Assembly: GCA_937924525.1 (NCBI GenBank)
Contig: CALDSU010000001.1
Span: forward strand, 372,001 to 436,000
From: an uncultured Bryobacteraceae bacterium
Lineage (GTDB): Bacteria; Acidobacteriota; Terriglobia; Bryobacterales; Bryobacteraceae
DNA length: 64,000 bases
Direction: 5' to 3'
The notes beneath the pieces were generated by a model. The model worked only from the letters and a program-made list of their open reading frames with translations. It did no database searches and was not told the DNA's origin. Position 1 is the stretch's first letter; each line of letters begins with the position of its first letter. A program made the position numbers and the translations under genes. Shown here in pieces: positions 22,787 to 32,299 of this stretch.

Positions 22787-24640
22787 TCAATCCACGCGAA
22801 TCGTGACGTCGTCGACGTAGAACAAGGCTTCTGGCGCCGGCTCGTCGGCGCCGGGAAGGTCTTTCAAAGTTGGGTCGTAGCGGTCGAGTTGGCGGGAGGG
22901 ATCGTTCCGGTAGGGGCCCGTGCGGAACGACAGGCGCTCGACGCTCAGCACGGCCTCGGCGAACTGCGCGCCGGGCAAGGCGGAGGCGCCGTCCAGCGTC
23001 AGATCGAACCGGCCTCTGCTCGCGTCCACGGCGATGTGGAGATCATGCCAGTGCCCGGGACGGACGCGGCGCACCGGGGTGAGCGCGCCGCCGTTCACCG
23101 CGCGGACCCAGCCATCGGTGGCGAAGACGATGCGCACGGGACGGTTGCCATACCGGTCCATCACCTCGATCTCGAACGGATCCGCGCCGGCGGCTCTCGG
23201 CAGCACGCGGCAGCGCACTCGGGCCCGCTTGCCTTCGGGGAACACGCGGACCGCGCGGGCGTAATCGTACGGATCGCGGTCGCGCAGCGCCAGGCTCTTG
23301 TTGGCGCGGCTCGGAAACTCTTCCACCGCCACCGGGGCCCATTGCGGGGAGTAGAGATTCCAAGCGGGCGCCTCGCCGCCCGCGGGGAGATCGTCGAACC
23401 GGTCCTCTACCGGTCCGCCCACGCGCTCGCGAATCGGGACGGGAATCCGGCTGACCCAGATGTCCTCTTTGTTCATGCTGTAGGCGACCCAGAACGCCGG
23501 TTCGCCGGGGTCGCCGTTGCCCTCCGCAAGGCCGCGCACATATTGCGAGCCGAAATCCTTGGCGCGGCCTACAAAGCGCCGCGCCGGGACCTCGCCATGC
23601 ACGAGGTTGAGCGAAGTAAACACGATCCCGTCGTCACCGGCGGCGACCGCCAGCGGCCAGCGTTGCACGCCATACGGAACCGGATTGTAGACCAGCGCAT
23701 AGCGTCCGTCCGGAGTGCGCTGTCCCCACATCTTGGCGTTGTTGGTGATGAAGGTGGAGGAACGCACGGGCGCCGACCAGGATGCGCCTTCGTCGGTGGA
23801 AAGCGCCGCGAAGGCCTGCTTGCACACCCCGGCCACCACGCCGTCCGGCCGGTGAAAGAACGAGAGCGAGGAGCACGGCCCGCGCATGACGGCCGCGTCC
23901 GGGTCTTCGTCGCGCCATTGCTCAACCATCAGCCGGTTGCGGAGCAGCGCCTCGCAGGCGGCCACGAAATCCGGGTCCGGGGAGCGCGTGTGAAACGGAA
24001 ACGCGGTGTTCTGCTCCCGCCAGGGCGTGGCCGTGTTGTAACGGAGGAAATAGATCGGCCCCATTTTCCCGTCGCGGTACATCTCGCGGACCACCCGGCC
24101 GATGCCGCTCTGACGAAACGGATGCGGCGCATGGCCGTAAAAAGCCAGCAGCAGGAGACGGCCGTTGGGCGCCACGAAAAAGCCCATCCGCTGGTGCATT
24201 ATGTAGCCGGTGCTGCCGGGTGGCGGCGCGATTCCCGGCGGAGGCTGGTAAGGCGGGAACGCCACCACCGGCCTGCCCCAGTGGCGCCCATCAGCCGAAG
24301 AAACCACCAGGGTCTGGCCGGGAGGCTCGTGCTCACCGACGGGGTTGCTCAGGTACTCGACGTGGAAGTTGCCGTTCCAGTACGCCAGCATCGGCGCGTG
24401 GCTATAGGTCCAGCCGGAGCCGTCGCCCAGTTCCGGGCGTGTCCGGTTGGCGCGCATCACCTGGAAACTGGACGCGCCGACTACCGGCCGCAACCGGCCG
24501 TCGTGGACATTCTCGTCGACGTACACGCCACCCAGGTAGCGAACCGGTTCGCGGGCGCTGCCGGTCTGCGCGAGGCACGCCGCCCCGCACGCAACCAGCC
24601 CGCACCCTGCCCCACCAAGCCGCCACGCCAGTCTTCTCAT
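22787..24640 (-). CDS. Secreted sialidase-like propeller protein with C-terminal jelly roll
   Basis: The 617-residue protein has a signal peptide (GAGCGLVACGAACLAQ). A six-bladed propeller-like region follows, with LVVSSADGRHWGRPVV and ALSTDEGASWSAPVR as Asp-box-type repeats. A lectin-like jelly-roll domain makes up roughly the last 200 residues (WHDLHIAVDASRGRFDLTLDG). This layout resembles exo-sialidase and related BNR glycoside hydrolases. The full arginine triad of true sialidases was not confirmed, so the substrate is open. It has its own promoter (24662-24690). Confidence 0.6.
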   Translation of the reverse strand: MRRLAWRLGGAGCGLVACGAACLAQTGSAREPVRYLGGVYVDENVHDGRLRPVVGASSFQVMRANRTRPELGDGSGWTYSHAPMLAYWNGNFHVEYLSNPVGEHEPPGQTLVVSSADGRHWGRPVVAFPPYQPPPGIAPPPGSTGYIMHQRMGFFVAPNGRLLLLAFYGHAPHPFRQSGIGRVVREMYRDGKMGPIYFLRYNTATPWREQNTAFPFHTRSPDPDFVAACEALLRNRLMVEQWRDEDPDAAVMRGPCSSLSFFHRPDGVVAGVCKQAFAALSTDEGASWSAPVRSSTFITNNAKMWGQRTPDGRYALVYNPVPYGVQRWPLAVAAGDDGIVFTSLNLVHGEVPARRFVGRAKDFGSQYVRGLAEGNGDPGEPAFWVAYSMNKEDIWVSRIPVPIRERVGGPVEDRFDDLPAGGEAPAWNLYSPQWAPVAVEEFPSRANKSLALRDRDPYDYARAVRVFPEGKRARVRCRVLPRAAGADPFEIEVMDRYGNRPVRIVFATDGWVRAVNGGALTPVRRVRPGHWHDLHIAVDASRGRFDLTLDGASALPGAQFAEAVLSVERLSFRTGPYRNDPSRQLDRYDPTLKDLPGADEPAPEALFYVDDVTIRVD

Positions 24641-24841: not shown

Positions 24842-26815
24842 CTAAAACTGGCGCCGCTCCCGTTCGTAGGGCTTCGCCAGATACTTGTTCGCCTCTTCCA
24901 GCGCGCCCTGCGTATTGTCTTTCGTCCGCAACGCCTGCTTGTATTCGTTCACCGCCCGCTCCCGCTGGCCGGTGATGTCGAAAATCTTACCCAGGTTGAT
25001 GTGCGACCACACTTCCGTCCACTGGGGCTGCAAATCCCCGTTGAGCGCTTCCCGGAACTCATTGGCCGCGGACTGGTAATTGTTTTGCAGGAAGAACACC
25101 TCGGCGATACGGTAGTGCGCCAGCGAACTGGCGCGGTTCACTTCCAGGGCTTTCTGGTATTCCTTCAGCGCCTCGCCGAACTCGCTGATCTCGGCGAACT
25201 GCTCGCCGCGGCGGATGGCGACGGCGATCCGCATCTGGTTGGAGAAGCGCAGCACCTTGTTGTTCGGGTCGAGAATGACGCGGCGAGGTTTGCCGAAAGT
25301 GTCGACCGAGAATTCGCTGGACGTGCCGACCACCTCGATGCGGGTTTCCTCCGGATTGCCCTCGGTTTCAATTCTCAGGTCCACCGGCATGCGGAACGTG
25401 TCGAGGTCCTGGGACACTTTCCCCACAGCGCGGAAGCCTTTCTGCGTGCGGAAAATCGTGTATTCGAGTTTGAATTCCGGGGCGCCGCTGGATTCCACCC
25501 ATTGGATGAAGAAATAGCCAAGATCCTGTTTGGCGCTCAGCTCCATGGCGCGGCGGAAATCATCGGTCGAGGCGGGTTGACCGGCCTTCGACGCCGCGAA
25601 ATTCTTCAATCCCTCAAAGAACGCCTCGTCGCCCACCACGTAACGCAGCATATGCGCGGTCACGGCGCCCTTGGCTCCGGAGAGAGCATTCAACTCAGGC
25701 GAGTAGTCCTCGAGCCGCCCCGCCTGGCTTTGCGGAATATTCTCGATCGTCAAGGCCTCGACTTGTGCGTCGCGCATCTCCCGCTCGAGGGCCTCCGGTC
25801 CGTTGATCTGCTCCTGGTAAAGCGCTTCCGCATAGCTGGCCAGTCCGTTGGCCAGCCACAGGTGGTTCCGCGTGACGGGCGAAATCTGCAGCCCCCACCA
25901 CTGGCGGGACACCTGATTGGCGAGCAGGCGGAGGTTGGGCTGCTGGCCGATGCCGCGCGGGCTCAGGAACAGCAACCCGGGCGCGGCGTAGCCGTTCGCG
26001 GCGCCCGCCTCGGTTTGGACCAAAGCCAGGTTCGCGTAGGGTGGGGTCCCGAACTTGGCCGCAAAGTGCGCAACCACCTTGCCCGTCTCTTCCCCATAAG
26101 CCTGCGCCACCGCCTGCTCAGCGTCGCGGAAGTAGACAAAGGTCGTCACGCCCGCCGAGCTTACCCGCGTGGGCTCCCCCTTGACGACCGCAAGGCTGCC
26201 GGGAAAACCGGGCTTGTCAAACTGAAATTGATAGGCGACCTTGCCGCCAGACTCTTCCTTGGTTTCCAGCCCGCTGGCCAGGACGCGCTCGCCGGGAGCC
26301 ACGGTCACCCGCATCTCCATGGTGAACCGGTCGGTGGTGTAGCCGCTGACGGGAAACCAGCGCGAGGGATACAGCAGGTACGCGTACTCGTTTTGAATGG
26401 CGGCGAAACGGATGCCGTACACCGGAGACTCTTCCTGCCCGGTCAGCTTGCCGTCGTAATAAAACATCACGGTCTGCGGCTGGTCCTTGGGAAGATTCTC
26501 GGGGAAGGTCAGGCGGATGGTGAAGTCATCCTGGTTCCGCGAGGCGGAGATCGGTTCGCCTTTTTCGTTGACCACCTTAGAGACGTTGAGGGCGTTGTTC
26601 AGCTCGAAGGTGACGGAATTGTTGCGGTCGTCCAGCGAGACGAAGCGGATGGCCGCCACGGCATTGATCGACTGGGTCCGCAGGTTCACGTCCGCCACCA
26701 GCCGGTACGCCTCCACGTCGATCCGGGCGCGGCGCTCGCCGGTTTGCGCCAGCAGCGCCGGGCTCCCGGCCAGCAGCGCGATCAGACTAAATTTCCACGC
26801 GTTTCGCATTCGCAT
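24842..26815 (-). CDS. M1 peptidase-like protein lacking zinc ligands, with C-terminal TPR-like repeats
   Basis: This exported 657-residue protein (signal ALLAGSPALLAQ) follows the M1 aminopeptidase plan. The zinc motif HExxHxW is replaced by NQVSRQWWG (residues 300-308). The distal Glu of WLNEG is Asn323 (WLANG), and the GAMEN substrate motif is AGAANG (270-275). The flanking fold signatures remain (RQWWGLQISP, FFIQWVESSGAPEF). It is therefore probably a non-catalytic relative. From about residue 540, TPR-like repeats follow (FGEALKEYQKALEVN, YQSAANEFREAL, ERAVNEYKQAL), suggesting a binding role. Its start overlaps the lpxB end by 29 bp. Confidence 0.8.
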   Translation of the reverse strand: MRMRNAWKFSLIALLAGSPALLAQTGERRARIDVEAYRLVADVNLRTQSINAVAAIRFVSLDDRNNSVTFELNNALNVSKVVNEKGEPISASRNQDDFTIRLTFPENLPKDQPQTVMFYYDGKLTGQEESPVYGIRFAAIQNEYAYLLYPSRWFPVSGYTTDRFTMEMRVTVAPGERVLASGLETKEESGGKVAYQFQFDKPGFPGSLAVVKGEPTRVSSAGVTTFVYFRDAEQAVAQAYGEETGKVVAHFAAKFGTPPYANLALVQTEAGAANGYAAPGLLFLSPRGIGQQPNLRLLANQVSRQWWGLQISPVTRNHLWLANGLASYAEALYQEQINGPEALEREMRDAQVEALTIENIPQSQAGRLEDYSPELNALSGAKGAVTAHMLRYVVGDEAFFEGLKNFAASKAGQPASTDDFRRAMELSAKQDLGYFFIQWVESSGAPEFKLEYTIFRTQKGFRAVGKVSQDLDTFRMPVDLRIETEGNPEETRIEVVGTSSEFSVDTFGKPRRVILDPNNKVLRFSNQMRIAVAIRRGEQFAEISEFGEALKEYQKALEVNRASSLAHYRIAEVFFLQNNYQSAANEFREALNGDLQPQWTEVWSHINLGKIFDITGQRERAVNEYKQALRTKDNTQGALEEANKYLAKPYERERRQF

Positions 26816-27938
26816 CGAGATACTCTTCCACTACCTCCGCGGCGCGCGCCATCGGGTCCTGCGCGACCGTCAAGCGGGCCGCCACCTCCCGCAAATCCTG
26901 CTTCATCCGGGCGCGGGCCGCGGGGTCGCGCAGCAGCCGAACCGTCTCGCGGGCCAGGTTTTCGCCCGTCATGGCATGCTGCATCCATTCGGTCACCACC
27001 GGGCGTCCCGCCACCAGATTTACCATACAGTAAAACGGCACCCGCACCAGCGCCTGGCCGGCCAGCCAGCTCGGCCAAGTAACCCGGTAAAACGTCACCA
27101 GGGGAGTTCCCAGCAACGCCGCCTCCACGGTCACGGTGCCGGATGCGGCCAGCGCCACGTCGGCGTGCCCGAGGGCCTCCCAGGTTTCACCCTCAATCAC
27201 TTGGATGGGCGCCGCGCCCAGGCGTTCCCGAAAAAAATCGGCGCCGGTGTGCGCCGACGCCGGGAGCAGGAAATGGACCGCTTGTTCCCGGTAAATCCGG
27301 GCCACGGCGTCGAGCAGCCCGGGAAGATGCCGTTTCGCTTCGCCCCGCCGGCTGCCGGGCAACACTACCACTAGAGGACGATCCAGCGCCATCCGGTGTT
27401 TCCGGAAAAACTCTTCGCGCGAGCAAGTCACGCCAATCGCGTGCGCCAGCGGATGCCCGATGTAAGTGGCCCGCACCCCCCGCCGCCGGAAGTAGGGTTC
27501 TTCAAACGGGAAAATGCACAGCAGGTGATCGACCACCCGGCGGATGGTCTTGACCCGTCCTTCCCTCCACGCCCAGACTTGAGGCGCCACCAGATAGATG
27601 ACCGGGATCCCCTGGCGCTTCAGCCTGGCCGCCACGCGAAGGTGGAAATCCGGCGAGTCGGTGAGCACCGCCACGTCCGGGCGCGCGCGTTCGGCTTCCC
27701 GCAATAGCTTGCGGTATTCGCCGTAGACGCGCGGCAAATGCAGAACTACTTCCAGCAACCCCACTACGGCCAAGCTACTGGAGTCCACCACGGTTCGCAC
27801 CCCGGCGGCGCGCATGAGGGGGCCGGTGCACCCATACAGGTCCGCGTCCGGAAAACGGGCGCGCAGGCGGGAGGCGACCGCAGCCGCGTACCGGTCGCCG
27901 GAAGCCTCGCCGGCCGAAATCAGGATCCGAAGGGGCAC
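26787..27938 (-). CDS. lpxB: Lipid-A-disaccharide synthase
   Basis: LpxB (GT19) joins UDP-diacylglucosamine to lipid X, making the lipid A disaccharide at the inner face of the cytoplasmic membrane. The GTG at 27938 gives MPLRILISAGEASGD, the family start; the longer frame upstream is not conserved. Other signatures are LTDSPDFHLRVA, YLVAPQVWAWREGR, GHPLAH and VLPGSRRGEAKRHLP. At 383 residues it has full length. No other lpx genes are adjacent, while the pseudo-M1 gene overlaps its end. Confidence 0.94.
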   Translation of the reverse strand: MPLRILISAGEASGDRYAAAVASRLRARFPDADLYGCTGPLMRAAGVRTVVDSSSLAVVGLLEVVLHLPRVYGEYRKLLREAERARPDVAVLTDSPDFHLRVAARLKRQGIPVIYLVAPQVWAWREGRVKTIRRVVDHLLCIFPFEEPYFRRRGVRATYIGHPLAHAIGVTCSREEFFRKHRMALDRPLVVVLPGSRRGEAKRHLPGLLDAVARIYREQAVHFLLPASAHTGADFFRERLGAAPIQVIEGETWEALGHADVALAASGTVTVEAALLGTPLVTFYRVTWPSWLAGQALVRVPFYCMVNLVAGRPVVTEWMQHAMTGENLARETVRLLRDPAARARMKQDLREVAARLTVAQDPMARAAEVVEEYLDANAKRVEI

Positions 27939-28365
27939 TTCCGTCAGTCTAGCCTGCGGCGCCCAACCCCGGGCGCGGCAATCTGCGCCGCCCCTCCCTG
28001 TTCCCTGTCGGGAAGAGAGATGGCGGCTGCGACAATTTGCCGCAAGACAGCCGTACAGAAATCCCGTAAACTCATAGCCGGGAGAAGCCAACGGGCTTTT
28101 CCTTCATGCACCTTTAGGCAATCCTGAGACGGGCCGGTTCCGCGGGGTTCAACCTCCTCCTCAAGCCGAAGCGGAACCGGCCTTTGTGCGTTTTGGGAGC
28201 CCTCACATTCCGAAATCCCCTCCGCCCTGCCAGGTTCCGCTGCTTAAGGTTGCGCGGCAGCGCGGGAGCTCCGCTTGCGGAGTGCGATTTGTCCCTTGCG
28301 CGCGTCGTCGAGGGCGGCAGTGAGCACCCGCATCGACTCCAGCGGAGCGTGGAATCCGGGAAGCG
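27939..28365. other. Gene-free region between lpxB and the GNAT gene
   Basis: This 427-bp stretch has no convincing gene. It contains a GCGCCC/GGGCGC mini-hairpin near 27960, the 12-bp perfect hairpin at 28132-28182, and a short leftward frame around 28260-28350. That frame could encode about 29 residues starting MRVLTAALDDARKGQIAL, with only a poorly placed ribosome site. The frame may be a relic; coding is not supported. Confidence 0.4.
28132..28182 (+). terminator. Terminator-like hairpin or structured RNA end
   Basis: GGCCGGTTCCGC (28132-28143) pairs perfectly with GCGGAACCGGCC (28171-28182) across a 27-nt loop and is followed by TTTGTGCGTTTT. The T-rich side is on the plus strand, where no upstream gene is visible, so it may end an unannotated RNA. 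Confidence 0.4.
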
Positions 28366-29199
28366 TTAACCAAACTCCAAGCCCGCCAGGGCCCAGACGA
28401 GGCGCGCCGGCGCGCCGTAGTCCTCCAGCGGCGGGCCGCGGCGCATGCGCAGCAACCGACGCACAGGCTGGAAGCCAAGTTCGGCCGCCAGCGCAGCGGC
28501 CGGGGCGTGCTCAGGAGGCAGGTCCCAGAGCGCGGGTTCAGCCCCGTGGCGGCTGCGGAAATCGAAGGCCAGCCGGCGGGCGGTTTCCTCGCCGCGCGCG
28601 ACGCAGGGTCCGAAGTGACGCCAGCGGCGGCCAGGGCGATCGAGCGCGTAGCCGTCCGCGCCGCGGCAGCCTTCGCCGGCGGGGCGCAGCAGGCTGAGCA
28701 GGGTGGTGCGATCGGCGCCGAACGCCTCACGGTCGAGCGGCAGCAGATCGTCGATGGGTGGCGCCGGGCGCGGCGCCGGCGGCGGGGCGGCGCCGGGTTC
28801 GCCTTCCCGCGCCCAGCGTTCCACGAGGTACTCGCCGCGAAACCCCAGCCGCTCATAAAGCGGCCGGCCGGCGTCCGTCGCGTCCAGCTTGACGCAGGCG
28901 ACGCCGGCTTGCTCGAGATGGTCGAGCGCGCGGCGCATCAGGCGGGTGGCGAAGCCGCGCCCGCGAAACGGCTCACGGGTCAGCACCATGCCAATCCAGG
29001 CCAGACGCCCGCCGTAGCGGACTGCGGTGGTGGTGGCGGCCACTTCGCCGCCGCACTCCACGGCGAAGCACCCGGCCGGCTCCAGGGCCAGGAGCCTGAG
29101 CCAGTCGCTCGGTGTCTGGTTCCAACCGGCCTCGGTGGAAAGCCGCACTGCTTGCGGGAGATCGGCCGGCGTCAGCAGACGGATCCTTGCGTCAGGCAT
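28366..29199 (-). CDS. GNAT family N-acetyltransferase with extra C-terminal domain
   Basis: This 277-residue cytosolic acyl-CoA-dependent acetyltransferase has its GNAT core in the first 140 residues. It shows the acetyl-CoA loop REPFRGRGFATRLM (Q/R-x-x-G-x-G/A) and the closing YERLGFRGE. A Pro-rich linker leads to a second domain (PALWDLPPEHAPAAALAAEL then LGFQPVRRLLRM) typical of two-domain YitH-like acetyltransferases. The ATG at 29199 was preferred to a TTG two codons earlier. The acceptor is unknown. Confidence 0.85.
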   Translation of the reverse strand: MPDARIRLLTPADLPQAVRLSTEAGWNQTPSDWLRLLALEPAGCFAVECGGEVAATTTAVRYGGRLAWIGMVLTREPFRGRGFATRLMRRALDHLEQAGVACVKLDATDAGRPLYERLGFRGEYLVERWAREGEPGAAPPPAPRPAPPIDDLLPLDREAFGADRTTLLSLLRPAGEGCRGADGYALDRPGRRWRHFGPCVARGEETARRLAFDFRSRHGAEPALWDLPPEHAPAAALAAELGFQPVRRLLRMRRGPPLEDYGAPARLVWALAGLEFG

Positions 29200-29281
29200 G
29201 CGCAATTCCTATCTTGCGCCGGTTTTTTTGGCCGCAACAACCTTCCCCGTCCGATGAGCAGGAAGCAGGGAGGTCCTGATC

Positions 29282-32200
29282 GTGACCCGCCTTCGGTTCA
29301 TGGCGTTCGTCTTCTTCCTGTTGTTTGGTTTCCTGCCGGGTAGCCTCTGTGCGGCGGAGACGCCGGAGGAGTTGCTCTGGCCGCCGTCGGGAAAGGCGCC
29401 GGAGCAGGCAGCCCGCCCTGCGGACCCGGCGGGATTGACGGTGTTGCGGAGCCAGACTTGGCAAGTCAATAGGGCGGCTCTGCTCGGCCAGCCCGTGGTC
29501 TCCCTGGCGCCGTTCGCGGACCGCCGGTTCCGGGTGATCCGCACCCGCGTCAGTGAATCGGCCGACGGAAAGACGCTGTTGTGGTTCGGATCGCTGGCCG
29601 GGGAGCGGCCGGGCGGAGTGGTGCTCGCCGTGACGGGGGAGGTAATCTCGGGAAGCCTGCAACTGGCGACCGGGGAGTTCGTTGAGCTGCGGACCGCAGG
29701 TCCGGGCCTGGTCGAGGCGCGCGAGGTAGCGTTTGAAGAAACGTCATCGCCGGAAGACGTGCGCACGGTGAGCCTGCCCGCCACGCCGCCGCCCTTGAGC
29801 CATTCCGCGGGCACGGCTCAGATCGACGTCATGATCCTCTATACCGCGACGGCGCGGCAAGCCGCCGGGGGAGAGACGGCCATCCAGAACAAGATTCAGC
29901 TGGCGGTGGCGGAGATCAACCAGAGTTACCAAAACAGCGGCATCCCCATCGAGATGCGTTTGGTCCACGCCCGGGAAGTGGTTTACAACGAATCAAGCGG
30001 CATCGACCTGGCGCTGAGCCGGTTGACGGACAAAACGGACGGTGTCCTAGACGAGGCGCACACCTGGCGGAACCAGTACGGGGCCGACCTGGTGCAGTTG
30101 TGGATTCATGGCCCGGGCGCCGGCGGCGGAGTGGTTGGACTGGCGTGGCTGATGAGCCCGCCCTCGAGCTGGTTTTCCGAATATGGCTTCAGCGTCGTGG
30201 AATGGAACTTCGCTACCGGGCCCTACTTTACCTCGGGTCACGAATTCGGCCACAACCAGGGAGCGCACCACAACCGCGCGAACGCTGCCGGCGCCGGCGC
30301 GTACTCCTATTCGTACGGCTATCAGCTCAGCGGGGTCGCCTACCCGTTCCGAACCATCATGTCCTATGCGTGTCCCACGTACTGCCCGAAAATCAACTAC
30401 TGGTCGAATCCGGAGGTGCTCTACCAGAATCAGCCGATCGGCAAGCCGGCAGGGGACCCGGCATCGGCCGACAACCGGGCCACGCTGACCAACACCCGCA
30501 GCTACGTCGCAGCGTTTCGCGACGCGGCGCCTCCCCCCGCGCCGCAGCCGCCCGTTCCGGGCGCCCTGTCACCTTCCTCGGGCAGCGGCGCCGCGCAGAC
30601 CTTTGTGGCGACGTACACGGACGCCAACGGAGCGGCCGACATCGTGGGCGCATACCTGTTGGTGAACTCACAGATCCGGGCGGATCAAGGTTGCTTTCTC
30701 CACTACAGCCGCGCCGCCGGCACGTTTCAACTGCTCCACGACAGCGGCCAATGGTCTTCCCCCGCCGCCGCCGGATCCGGCACGCTGGCCAACTCCCGCT
30801 GCGTGTTGAACCTGGCCGGCGCCGGGGCGTCTGCCTCCGGAAACACGCTGACGGTGACCTTTCCGCTCACGTTCACCAGTCAGTTCGCCGGGGCGCAGAA
30901 TCTCTACCTGCTGGCGATTGACGCGAGCGGGCACAACAGCAACTGGTCGCTCAAGGGCGCCTGGACCGTGCCGGTTGGTCCTTCGCCGCCGATTCCGGGG
31001 ACGGTGACGCCCGCCTCCGGAACGGGCCTGTCCGCCTCCTTCTCGGCTACTTACTCCGACGCTAACGGCGCCACGGACATCGTCGGGGCGTACCTGATGG
31101 TTCATAGCCAGATCCGCCCCGACGGGGGCTGTTTCGTCTATTACCACCGGCCCGGCCACACCGTGTACCTGCTCAACGACGCGGGCACGTCCTGGTCGCC
31201 GGGTGTCCCGGCGGGCTCGGGCAGTCTGGCCAACGGCGCCTGCACGGTGAACACGGCAGCGCTGACCGCATCGACCAACGGCAACACGCTGACGGTGACA
31301 TTCCCGCTGGCATTCCAGGCGGCGTTTGCCGGAAGCAAAAACGTCTACCTGCTGGCGATCGATGCGGCGGGACACAACAGCAACTGGTCGGCCAAGGGGG
31401 GCTGGACGGTTCCGGCCGCGAATCAGCCGCCCGTGCCGGGCGCCATCTCCCCGGCCAGCGGAACCGGGACGGCTCAGACCTTCACCGCCACCTATTCGGA
31501 CGCGAATGGCGCGGCGGACATCGTGGGAGCGTACCTGCTGGTGCATTCCCAGATCCGGCCGGACGCCGGTTGTTTCGTCTATTACAATCGACCAGCGAAC
31601 ACGGTGCAGTTGGTCAACGACGCGGGCACGCTCTGGTCCGCGCCGGTCACGGCGGGCGCCGGATCGGTCGCCAACGGCTCTTGCTCGGTCAATGTCGCAG
31701 GGGTCAGCGCTTCCACGTCGGGCAATACCCTGACTTGGGTGGTTCCTTTGACATTCACGCCCACGTTTGGCGGCGAAAAGAATCTCTACCTGCTGGCGAT
31801 CGACGCCGCCGGCGCCAACAGCAACTGGTCGCTGAAAGGAAGCTGGACCGTGCCGTTCGGTCCCCGAACGCCGGCGCCGCAGTCGGTGTCGCCCAACTCG
31901 GGCGCCGGACTTGCGCAGACGTTCACGGCAACCTACTCCGACGCCAACGGCGCCACCGACATCGCCGGCGCCTATTTCCTGTTCCACTCGCAAATCCGGC
32001 CCGACGCCGGTTGCTTCGTCTACTACAACCGCGCCGCCAACACCGTGCAACTTGTCAACGACGCCGGGCTGCTCTGGTCCGCGCCCATTCCCGCGGGCTC
32101 CGGCACGCTGGCGAACTCGCAATGCGCCATCAGCGGCGTGGGCGTGTCCGGTTCGGCTGCCGGCGACACGCTCACCGTGACGCTGCCGGTGACGTTCTCT

Positions 32201-32299
32201 CCCACCTTCGCGGGAACAAAGAACATCTACCTCCTCGCCATCGACGCCAGCGGCGCCAACAGCAACTGGCACCTGAAGGGCGCCTGGGTGGTGCCGTAG
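29282..32299 (+). CDS. Secreted metzincin protease with four long tandem repeats
   Basis: A GTG start at 29282 follows GGGAGG. The 1005-residue protein has a signal peptide (FVFFLLFGFLPGSLCAA), a propeptide-like region and a reprolysin/M12B-like catalytic domain at about residues 185-415. The zinc motif HExxHxxGxxH reads HEFGHNQGAHH, with ligands H320, H324 and H330 and base E321. A Met-turn follows in IMSYACP. Residues 424 to the end are four repeats of 142-147 residues (30551-32296). An extracellular protease with surface- or glycan-binding repeats is the simplest reading. Confidence 0.85.
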   Translation: MTRLRFMAFVFFLLFGFLPGSLCAAETPEELLWPPSGKAPEQAARPADPAGLTVLRSQTWQVNRAALLGQPVVSLAPFADRRFRVIRTRVSESADGKTLLWFGSLAGERPGGVVLAVTGEVISGSLQLATGEFVELRTAGPGLVEAREVAFEETSSPEDVRTVSLPATPPPLSHSAGTAQIDVMILYTATARQAAGGETAIQNKIQLAVAEINQSYQNSGIPIEMRLVHAREVVYNESSGIDLALSRLTDKTDGVLDEAHTWRNQYGADLVQLWIHGPGAGGGVVGLAWLMSPPSSWFSEYGFSVVEWNFATGPYFTSGHEFGHNQGAHHNRANAAGAGAYSYSYGYQLSGVAYPFRTIMSYACPTYCPKINYWSNPEVLYQNQPIGKPAGDPASADNRATLTNTRSYVAAFRDAAPPPAPQPPVPGALSPSSGSGAAQTFVATYTDANGAADIVGAYLLVNSQIRADQGCFLHYSRAAGTFQLLHDSGQWSSPAAAGSGTLANSRCVLNLAGAGASASGNTLTVTFPLTFTSQFAGAQNLYLLAIDASGHNSNWSLKGAWTVPVGPSPPIPGTVTPASGTGLSASFSATYSDANGATDIVGAYLMVHSQIRPDGGCFVYYHRPGHTVYLLNDAGTSWSPGVPAGSGSLANGACTVNTAALTASTNGNTLTVTFPLAFQAAFAGSKNVYLLAIDAAGHNSNWSAKGGWTVPAANQPPVPGAISPASGTGTAQTFTATYSDANGAADIVGAYLLVHSQIRPDAGCFVYYNRPANTVQLVNDAGTLWSAPVTAGAGSVANGSCSVNVAGVSASTSGNTLTWVVPLTFTPTFGGEKNLYLLAIDAAGANSNWSLKGSWTVPFGPRTPAPQSVSPNSGAGLAQTFTATYSDANGATDIAGAYFLFHSQIRPDAGCFVYYNRAANTVQLVNDAGLLWSAPIPAGSGTLANSQCAISGVGVSGSAAGDTLTVTLPVTFSPTFAGTKNIYLLAIDASGANSNWHLKGAWVVP
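30551..32296 (+). repeat. Four tandem 146-residue repeats inside the metzincin gene
   Basis: Repeat starts are 30551, 30989, 31430 and 31871. Each unit runs from PxPGxxxPxSGxG through ATYxDANGAxDIVGAYLLV, SQIRPDxGCFVYY and TFPLTF to LYLLAIDAxGxNSNWSLKG and ends WTVP. Each unit holds two cysteines, one in GCF and one near the LANxxC segment, which may form a disulfide. The units look like beta-sandwich modules. I do not recognise a named family. Confidence 0.85.

Follow-up and report, generated by a model that had tools for sequence, protein, structure and literature searches.

The gene at 24842..26815 (minus strand, ATG start) of the window, i.e., the whole 64,000-nucleotide stretch of Bryobacteraceae DNA analyzed here, encodes a 657-residue protein with the predicted fold of peptidase family M1 and a C-terminal TPR domain, and to judge from the alignments its zinc ligands, GxMEN motif, and catalytic tyrosine have all been replaced. 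On balance, we favor the reading that this apparently exported pseudo-peptidase serves outer-membrane/LPS biogenesis as an adaptor or assembly factor without catalytic activity and is co-expressed with lpxB. Acidobacteria are abundant in soil and their envelope biology is little studied; a nearly universal, putatively exported protein beside lpxB across most of the class Terriglobia is a good candidate for an outer-membrane/LPS assembly factor. Moreover, the orthologs, which often occupy one locus, span intact to fully replaced zinc sites, which makes the change from enzyme to binding protein directly testable.

The Pfam family Peptidase_M1 matches residues 298-439 of the protein with 46.7 bits (cut-off, 27.7), and the Pfam matches to TPR families start at residue 537. 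The AlphaFold2 model, for which 40 family sequences were used as input, has a mean pLDDT of 85.8 and a pTM of 0.81. When this model was compared with solved structures by VIA-align, the 50 matches shown were M1 enzymes (Z = 34.9-37.6), and the predicted fold is therefore M1. The best match is Tricorn factor F3 (1z1w; Z = 37.6, rmsd = 5.2, 504 aligned residues), and ERAP1 (2yd0; Z = 36.8, rmsd = 3.2, 478 aligned) and the Deinococcus two-domain M1 enzyme (6koy; Z = 36.1, rmsd = 3.8, 399 aligned) are also among the matches. With the Pfam score above its cut-off and the structural match, the protein is assigned to family M1 as a homologous fold. The catalytic-like part is followed by a strongly conserved β-sandwich domain (25250..25480, minus strand; residues 446-522) and by the TPR domain (24866..25249, minus strand; residues 523-650), whose mean entropy is the lowest in the deep alignment described below. 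The earlier note had described an M1-like fold to which TPR-like repeats were added at the C terminus. The fold and the repeats are both borne out; since residues 32-641 of the model are covered by the top structural match, however, it is possible, on weaker evidence than that for the other assignments, that the TPRs substitute for the C-terminal helical domain found in larger M1 enzymes and are not an addition.

The genome of the window also encodes an ordinary LTA4H-like M1 protein (L003, approximately C15:172495-173088) with all of the motifs and the LTA4H C-terminal domain, and its sequences GGMENP, HELAHSW, WLNEG, and YEKG were used as the reference for the catalytic sites. In the window protein, the HExxH equivalent is NQVSR (25904..25918, minus strand; residues 300-304), with RQWWG retained next to it, and the distal zinc-binding glutamate aligns, across other M1 rows, with Asn323 in WLANG (25847..25849, minus strand), as the earlier note had read them. 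That note had placed the lost GAMEN motif at AGAANG (residues 270-275), which is 3-4 residues too early: the equivalent site is NGYAA (25982..25996, minus strand; residues 274-278), and in the alignment of NGYAAP with GGMENP of L003 the glutamate and asparagine are replaced by Ala277 and Ala278, respectively. The claim that every catalytic motif is replaced is sound and can be extended to the catalytic tyrosine, which it did not mention. The column expected to hold this tyrosine in M1 enzymes contains Tyr in all 14 ordinary M1 rows, Gly380 (25676..25678, minus strand; aligned with the ordinary M1 rows) in the window protein, and Ala, Gly, or Ser throughout the 129 rows of its family. The GxMEN glutamate is missing from all 97 ortholog rows of the deep alignment, and glutamate occupies this column in 1 of 203 distinct ortholog rows (L111). 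The window protein thus lacks each of the features of an active M1 zinc aminopeptidase (HExxH...E, GxMEN, and the catalytic tyrosine) and, having the predicted M1 fold together with a conserved loss of the catalytic residues, is classed by sequence and fold as a probable M1 pseudo-peptidase.

The loss is fixed in the family. We collected 129 family loci, 80 of which came from a pattern-seeded scan (the best 80 of 101 relatives) and 49 of which (29 plus 20 fetched) came from whole-protein searches of the genomes of the class. Because NQVSRQWW was one of the six seeds of the scan, the first group is biased toward motif loss; the second was obtained without motif seeding, and 22 of its members share a core sequence with a pattern-seeded locus and 27 are new. 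The two collections share some genomes, and the 129 loci reduce to 107 distinct core sequences. The M1 alignment recommended in the earlier note gives a clear answer, as the HExxH+E triad is found in 0/107 distinct family sequences and likewise in 0/49 loci from the whole-protein searches, and the pattern NQ..R N occupies the zinc site in 90 of the 107. In the 108 rows that include the query, the mean frequency of the major residue is 0.956 for the four zinc-site columns versus 0.684 for the domain, and 0.5% of random four-column sets match the conservation of the zinc site; when the zinc, GxMEN, and tyrosine columns are taken together, the excess of conservation is non-significant (0.0557). 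Since the zinc-site columns exceed the domain in conservation, the site has been replaced and is not drifting, i.e., it has been fixed again with new, nearly invariant residues (Asn300, Arg304, and Asn323). Recent decay and sequencing error, to which intact close homologues would have pointed, are ruled out by the fixation of the replacements across the distinct family sequences. None of the 107 distinct family sequences has intact HExxH/GAMEN motifs; L136, an ortholog from another family, carries HELAH...E and lacks GxMEN, and the loss is therefore not one recent event.

The near invariance of the pocket residues also bears on whether the protein is still an enzyme, with a pocket formed by Asn300, Arg304, Arg316, Asn317, His318, and Asn323 that catalyzes another reaction or uses another metal. 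These residues are conserved at 0.95-1.0 in the family and the fold is kept, and peptidase duty in the same genome is covered by the ordinary, active-type L003. The pockets of the sister families, however, differ from one another (NQ..R N, NT..H N/D, DE..Q Y, and RE..Y Q), and conservation is greater outside the pocket domain, so that continued catalysis seems distinctly unlikely. In the deep alignment, which comprises 97 rows from several classes with the query included, the mean entropy per column falls from 2.35 in the first β domain and 2.15 in the catalytic-like domain to 1.69 in the β-sandwich and 1.53 in the TPR domain; Ser564, Trp599, Gly609, Asp613, Arg618, Ala621, and Tyr625 are invariant among the rows with a residue at the position. 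Selection has been strongest on the C-terminal half, namely the β-sandwich and the TPRs, as would suit the binding role that we favor.

Outside the family, a few orthologs retain the zinc site. The ortholog set contains 225 rows, 203 of which are distinct; L178 is a duplicate of L136, and the very divergent L164 (genome G479; RS..Y Q) was excluded from the ortholog counts and included among the 24 outside-class loci of the adjacency count given below. The zinc triad is retained in 6 of the 203 distinct orthologs: L131, L183, and L187 in family f5, L135 and L181 in family f9, and L136 in family f11, another family of the class, the last with 53% identity to the query. None of the six has GxMEN, in place of which GGYSA or NGYSA is found; the catalytic tyrosine is retained by L131 and L183, and the three that were scanned by Pfam (L131, L135, and L136) have both M1 and TPR matches. 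For comparison, the triad and the tyrosine are present in 14/14 ordinary M1 rows and the GxMEN glutamate in 13/14. The ancestor probably had a zinc site and lacked the GxMEN of aminopeptidases. A protein in genome G473 (L172, 1518-4103, plus strand) has HEIAH, the glutamate, and the tyrosine intact, with GGQSS replacing GxMEN; Pfam finds nothing in its long N-terminal stretch and no TPR in the protein. It may be related to the ancestor from which the pseudo-peptidase family arose.

Two trees were calculated without the motif columns, a quick one of 112 rows and a careful one of 65 rows. The six intact orthologs occupy three separate positions with partial states around them, and intact and eroded forms coexist within single families; in family f5 (support of 100/100 in the careful tree), the intact triad, HE..R, HE..H with Asp or Asn, and TE..H E are found together. 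Given an intact ancestor and no regain, the number of zinc-site losses is at least 9 in both trees when forks with support below 80 are collapsed, and it is 9 and 11 in the uncollapsed trees. When the second tree was collapsed at 95, the outgroup was drawn in as well and the lower bound fell to 7; the other five settings gave 9 or 11. With equal costs, parsimony requires 4 changes of the zinc state among the orthologs, which formally favors regains. Losses are nevertheless preferred because the regain of four residues is unlikely, and the zinc site, if it cannot be regained, would have been lost about nine or more times. The converse history, in which the site was lost early and the six triads were restored by point reversion or by recombination with ordinary M1 genes, draws its support from this parsimony count. 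It would require any restored patch to end within approximately 22 residues, since the six lack GxMEN and 13 of the 14 ordinary M1 rows have its glutamate; in addition, the partial states (HE..R, HE..H D/N, TE..H E, and HE..Q) neighbor intact ones within the same families, as stepwise loss predicts. We regard restoration as highly improbable and continue with repeated loss.

The protein is widespread in the class. Any match at E ≤ 1e-6 was found in 398 of 399 class genomes, the weak ones probably being ordinary M1 genes or fragments, and about 383 of the 399 (hand tally) have a best E value of 1.2e-60 or lower, which suggests that the protein is near-universal in the class. Of the 395 genomes sampled across the phylum, 132 (hand tally) have a match at E ≤ 1.1e-47, and the 13 fetched phylum hits with E values of 1.4e-43 to 4.6e-34 (L165-L177) all have HExxH and the glutamate. 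Two class genomes with 99-100% completeness, G151 and G171, contain LpxB and show a weak match (3.7e-8) to the protein; they are possible natural losses of the gene.

Directly upstream of the pseudo-peptidase gene on the same strand lies an lpxB open frame (26787..28091, minus strand, putative start; PF02684, E = 7.6e-82). Its 3' end overlaps the start of the M1/TPR gene by 29 bp (26787..26815, minus strand), with the lpxB stop at 26787 and the ATG at 26815, in agreement with the overlap given in the earlier note. A Shine-Dalgarno-like GGAAGAG, as read from the sequence, is located within lpxB 7 nt before the ATG (26823..26829, minus strand). Of the 129 family loci, 128 have lpxB as the immediate upstream gene on the same strand (the exception is L081), and the same neighbor is found in 20/20 loci of family f10, in 46/53 of the remaining class loci, where a long open frame hides it in a 47th (L119), and in 12/24 loci outside the class. 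On the other hand, lpxB was upstream of none of the 12 ordinary M1 loci counted; two of the 14, L174 and L003, were left out as below the score limit or outside the set. A scan of neighbors at 66 family loci, the window included, recovered the M1/TPR family in 62 and lpxB at the expected position in 59; a divergent gene beside lpxB, encoding approximately 250 residues, was seen in 26, and each other family in at most 8. The lpxB pair is thus not the sole conserved arrangement, and it stands far above the divergent gene. Where the pair is broken, lpxB was found elsewhere in the genome in all six cases checked. The pairing is both genuine and old.

Co-occurrence, the check that the earlier note had suggested for acidobacteria, gives LpxB in 131 of the 132 genomes in which the ortholog is strongly matched (hand tally; the exception is G524), which is weak evidence at the level of the phylum because LpxB is present in 367 of 395 genomes (93%) of the sample; the informative feature is adjacency. 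As 236 of the 367 LpxB genomes (hand tally) have no strong ortholog match, general lipid A synthesis does not need the pseudo-peptidase. The genome of the window also encodes LpxK and LptD.

Between the stop of lpxB and codon 25 of the pseudo-peptidase gene, the median distance is 63 nt in the family (128 loci); it is below 60 nt in 50 loci, in which a signal peptide would therefore have to overlap lpxB. In family f10, the same distance ranges over 101-280 nt (25 loci), and this family and most of the other measured class loci have a gap to lpxB and no overlap. The overlap is accordingly common in the family and not in the class, and tight translational coupling is therefore not a general feature.

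Several neighboring genes were noted. The divergent gene (e.g., L013:3978-4727, minus strand) lies beside lpxB in the 26 loci mentioned above, and the two to four members tested gave no Pfam, NCBIfam, or PDB-sequence match. In the genome of the window it is located on another contig (C15:59196-59930, L251, 54% identity), so that it is not part of the window locus and a wider conserved operon was rejected for this locus; the rest of the opposite-strand neighbor cluster consists mostly of antisense open reading frames. In the window, the gene upstream of lpxB on the same strand (28366-29205, minus strand) encodes two GNAT acetyltransferase domains, the next gene downstream of the pseudo-peptidase (22787-24640, minus strand) encodes a BT_1020-like β-propeller and a sialidase-like CBM domain, and 29282-32299 (plus strand) encodes a long protein with the metzincin-type sequence HEFGHNQGAHH, after which come four repeats that resemble one another, each approximately 150 residues long.

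The N terminus of the window protein resembles a signal peptide (26744..26815, minus strand; residues 1-24), and residues 1-28 of the AlphaFold2 model have a pLDDT below 50. Among the distinct orthologs whose open frame continues upstream for 45 residues or more, 131/131 have a hydrophobic decamer ahead of the mature domain, versus 14/393 control windows. A lipobox-like word is found in 10 of 203 distinct orthologs, and the N terminus of the query has no Cys. The signal-like segment is consistent with the assignment to the cell envelope in the earlier note.

In the mechanism that we propose, the protein would be synthesized together with LpxB through translational coupling and would reside in the periplasm, where the face formed by the TPRs and the β-sandwich would bind a partner and the remodeled pocket might hold a ligand as well; descendants would have dropped the zinc site repeatedly as selection kept the binding role. 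LpxB is cytoplasmic and the pseudo-peptidase is apparently exported, and the two therefore probably make no contact, the link being one of pathway or expression. The proposal in the earlier note of a protease fold turned into a binding or chaperone protein is consistent with the M1 fold and the lost active site, chaperone activity itself being conjectural; a direct part in lipid A production, which that note linked to the overlap with lpxB, is likewise conjectural.

The gene could also be a passenger of lpxB, kept expressed by shared transcription and with a function unrelated to the envelope. The overlap in the window is what such a gene might show, and the gap that takes the place of the overlap in many class members beyond the family also suits this explanation. 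An unrelated passenger, however, would be expected to shuffle like most of the other neighbors, and the protein is near-universal in the class and carries an export signal; we therefore consider a mere passenger unlikely and retain the envelope adaptor. A broader account, which we hold as a tentative possibility rather than as the expected outcome, is that the protein is a Terriglobia-characteristic envelope factor, usually at the lpxB locus, that passed from enzyme to adaptor some nine or more times in parallel from an ancestor of the kind described above, with binding by the TPRs and the β-sandwich under selection and the order of losses varying by lineage.

One of the nearest known systems is peptidase family M1 itself. 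The N-terminal β domain, the catalytic-like domain, and the β-sandwich are all present in the window protein, and most ordinary M1 rows share Gln305, Trp306, Gly324, Lys382, Gly383, and Trp439 with it. Compared with the M1 enzymes (aminopeptidase N, ERAP, LTA4H, Tricorn factor F3, and the Deinococcus two-domain M1), it lacks HExxH, the distal glutamate, GxMEN, and the tyrosine, and it differs further in its C-terminal TPRs, its signal-like N terminus, and its pairing with lpxB. LapB/YciM is a TPR protein tied to LPS that acts on LpxC turnover and is not M1-fold. It shares TPRs with the window protein and differs in lacking the M1 fold, and the LapB model matches the window protein weakly and at the level of TPRs, with 16.3 bits (E = 0.0038) versus a cut-off of 474. 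Among the titles and abstracts listed by our search of the open-licence literature, none dealt with a pseudo-peptidase of this M1/TPR kind linked to lpxB in bacteria. TAF2 is a eukaryotic M1-fold protein with a binding role. A further eukaryotic M1-fold protein, Tma108, binds nascent chains and is described as missing one active-site residue and keeping all of the others (PMC11266112). Both resemble the window protein in that an M1 fold serves binding, which in the window protein is a predicted function, and both differ from it in being eukaryotic; in the literature consulted, neither a link to lpxB nor a TPR tail is described for them. M1-fold binding proteins are thus already known in eukaryotes.
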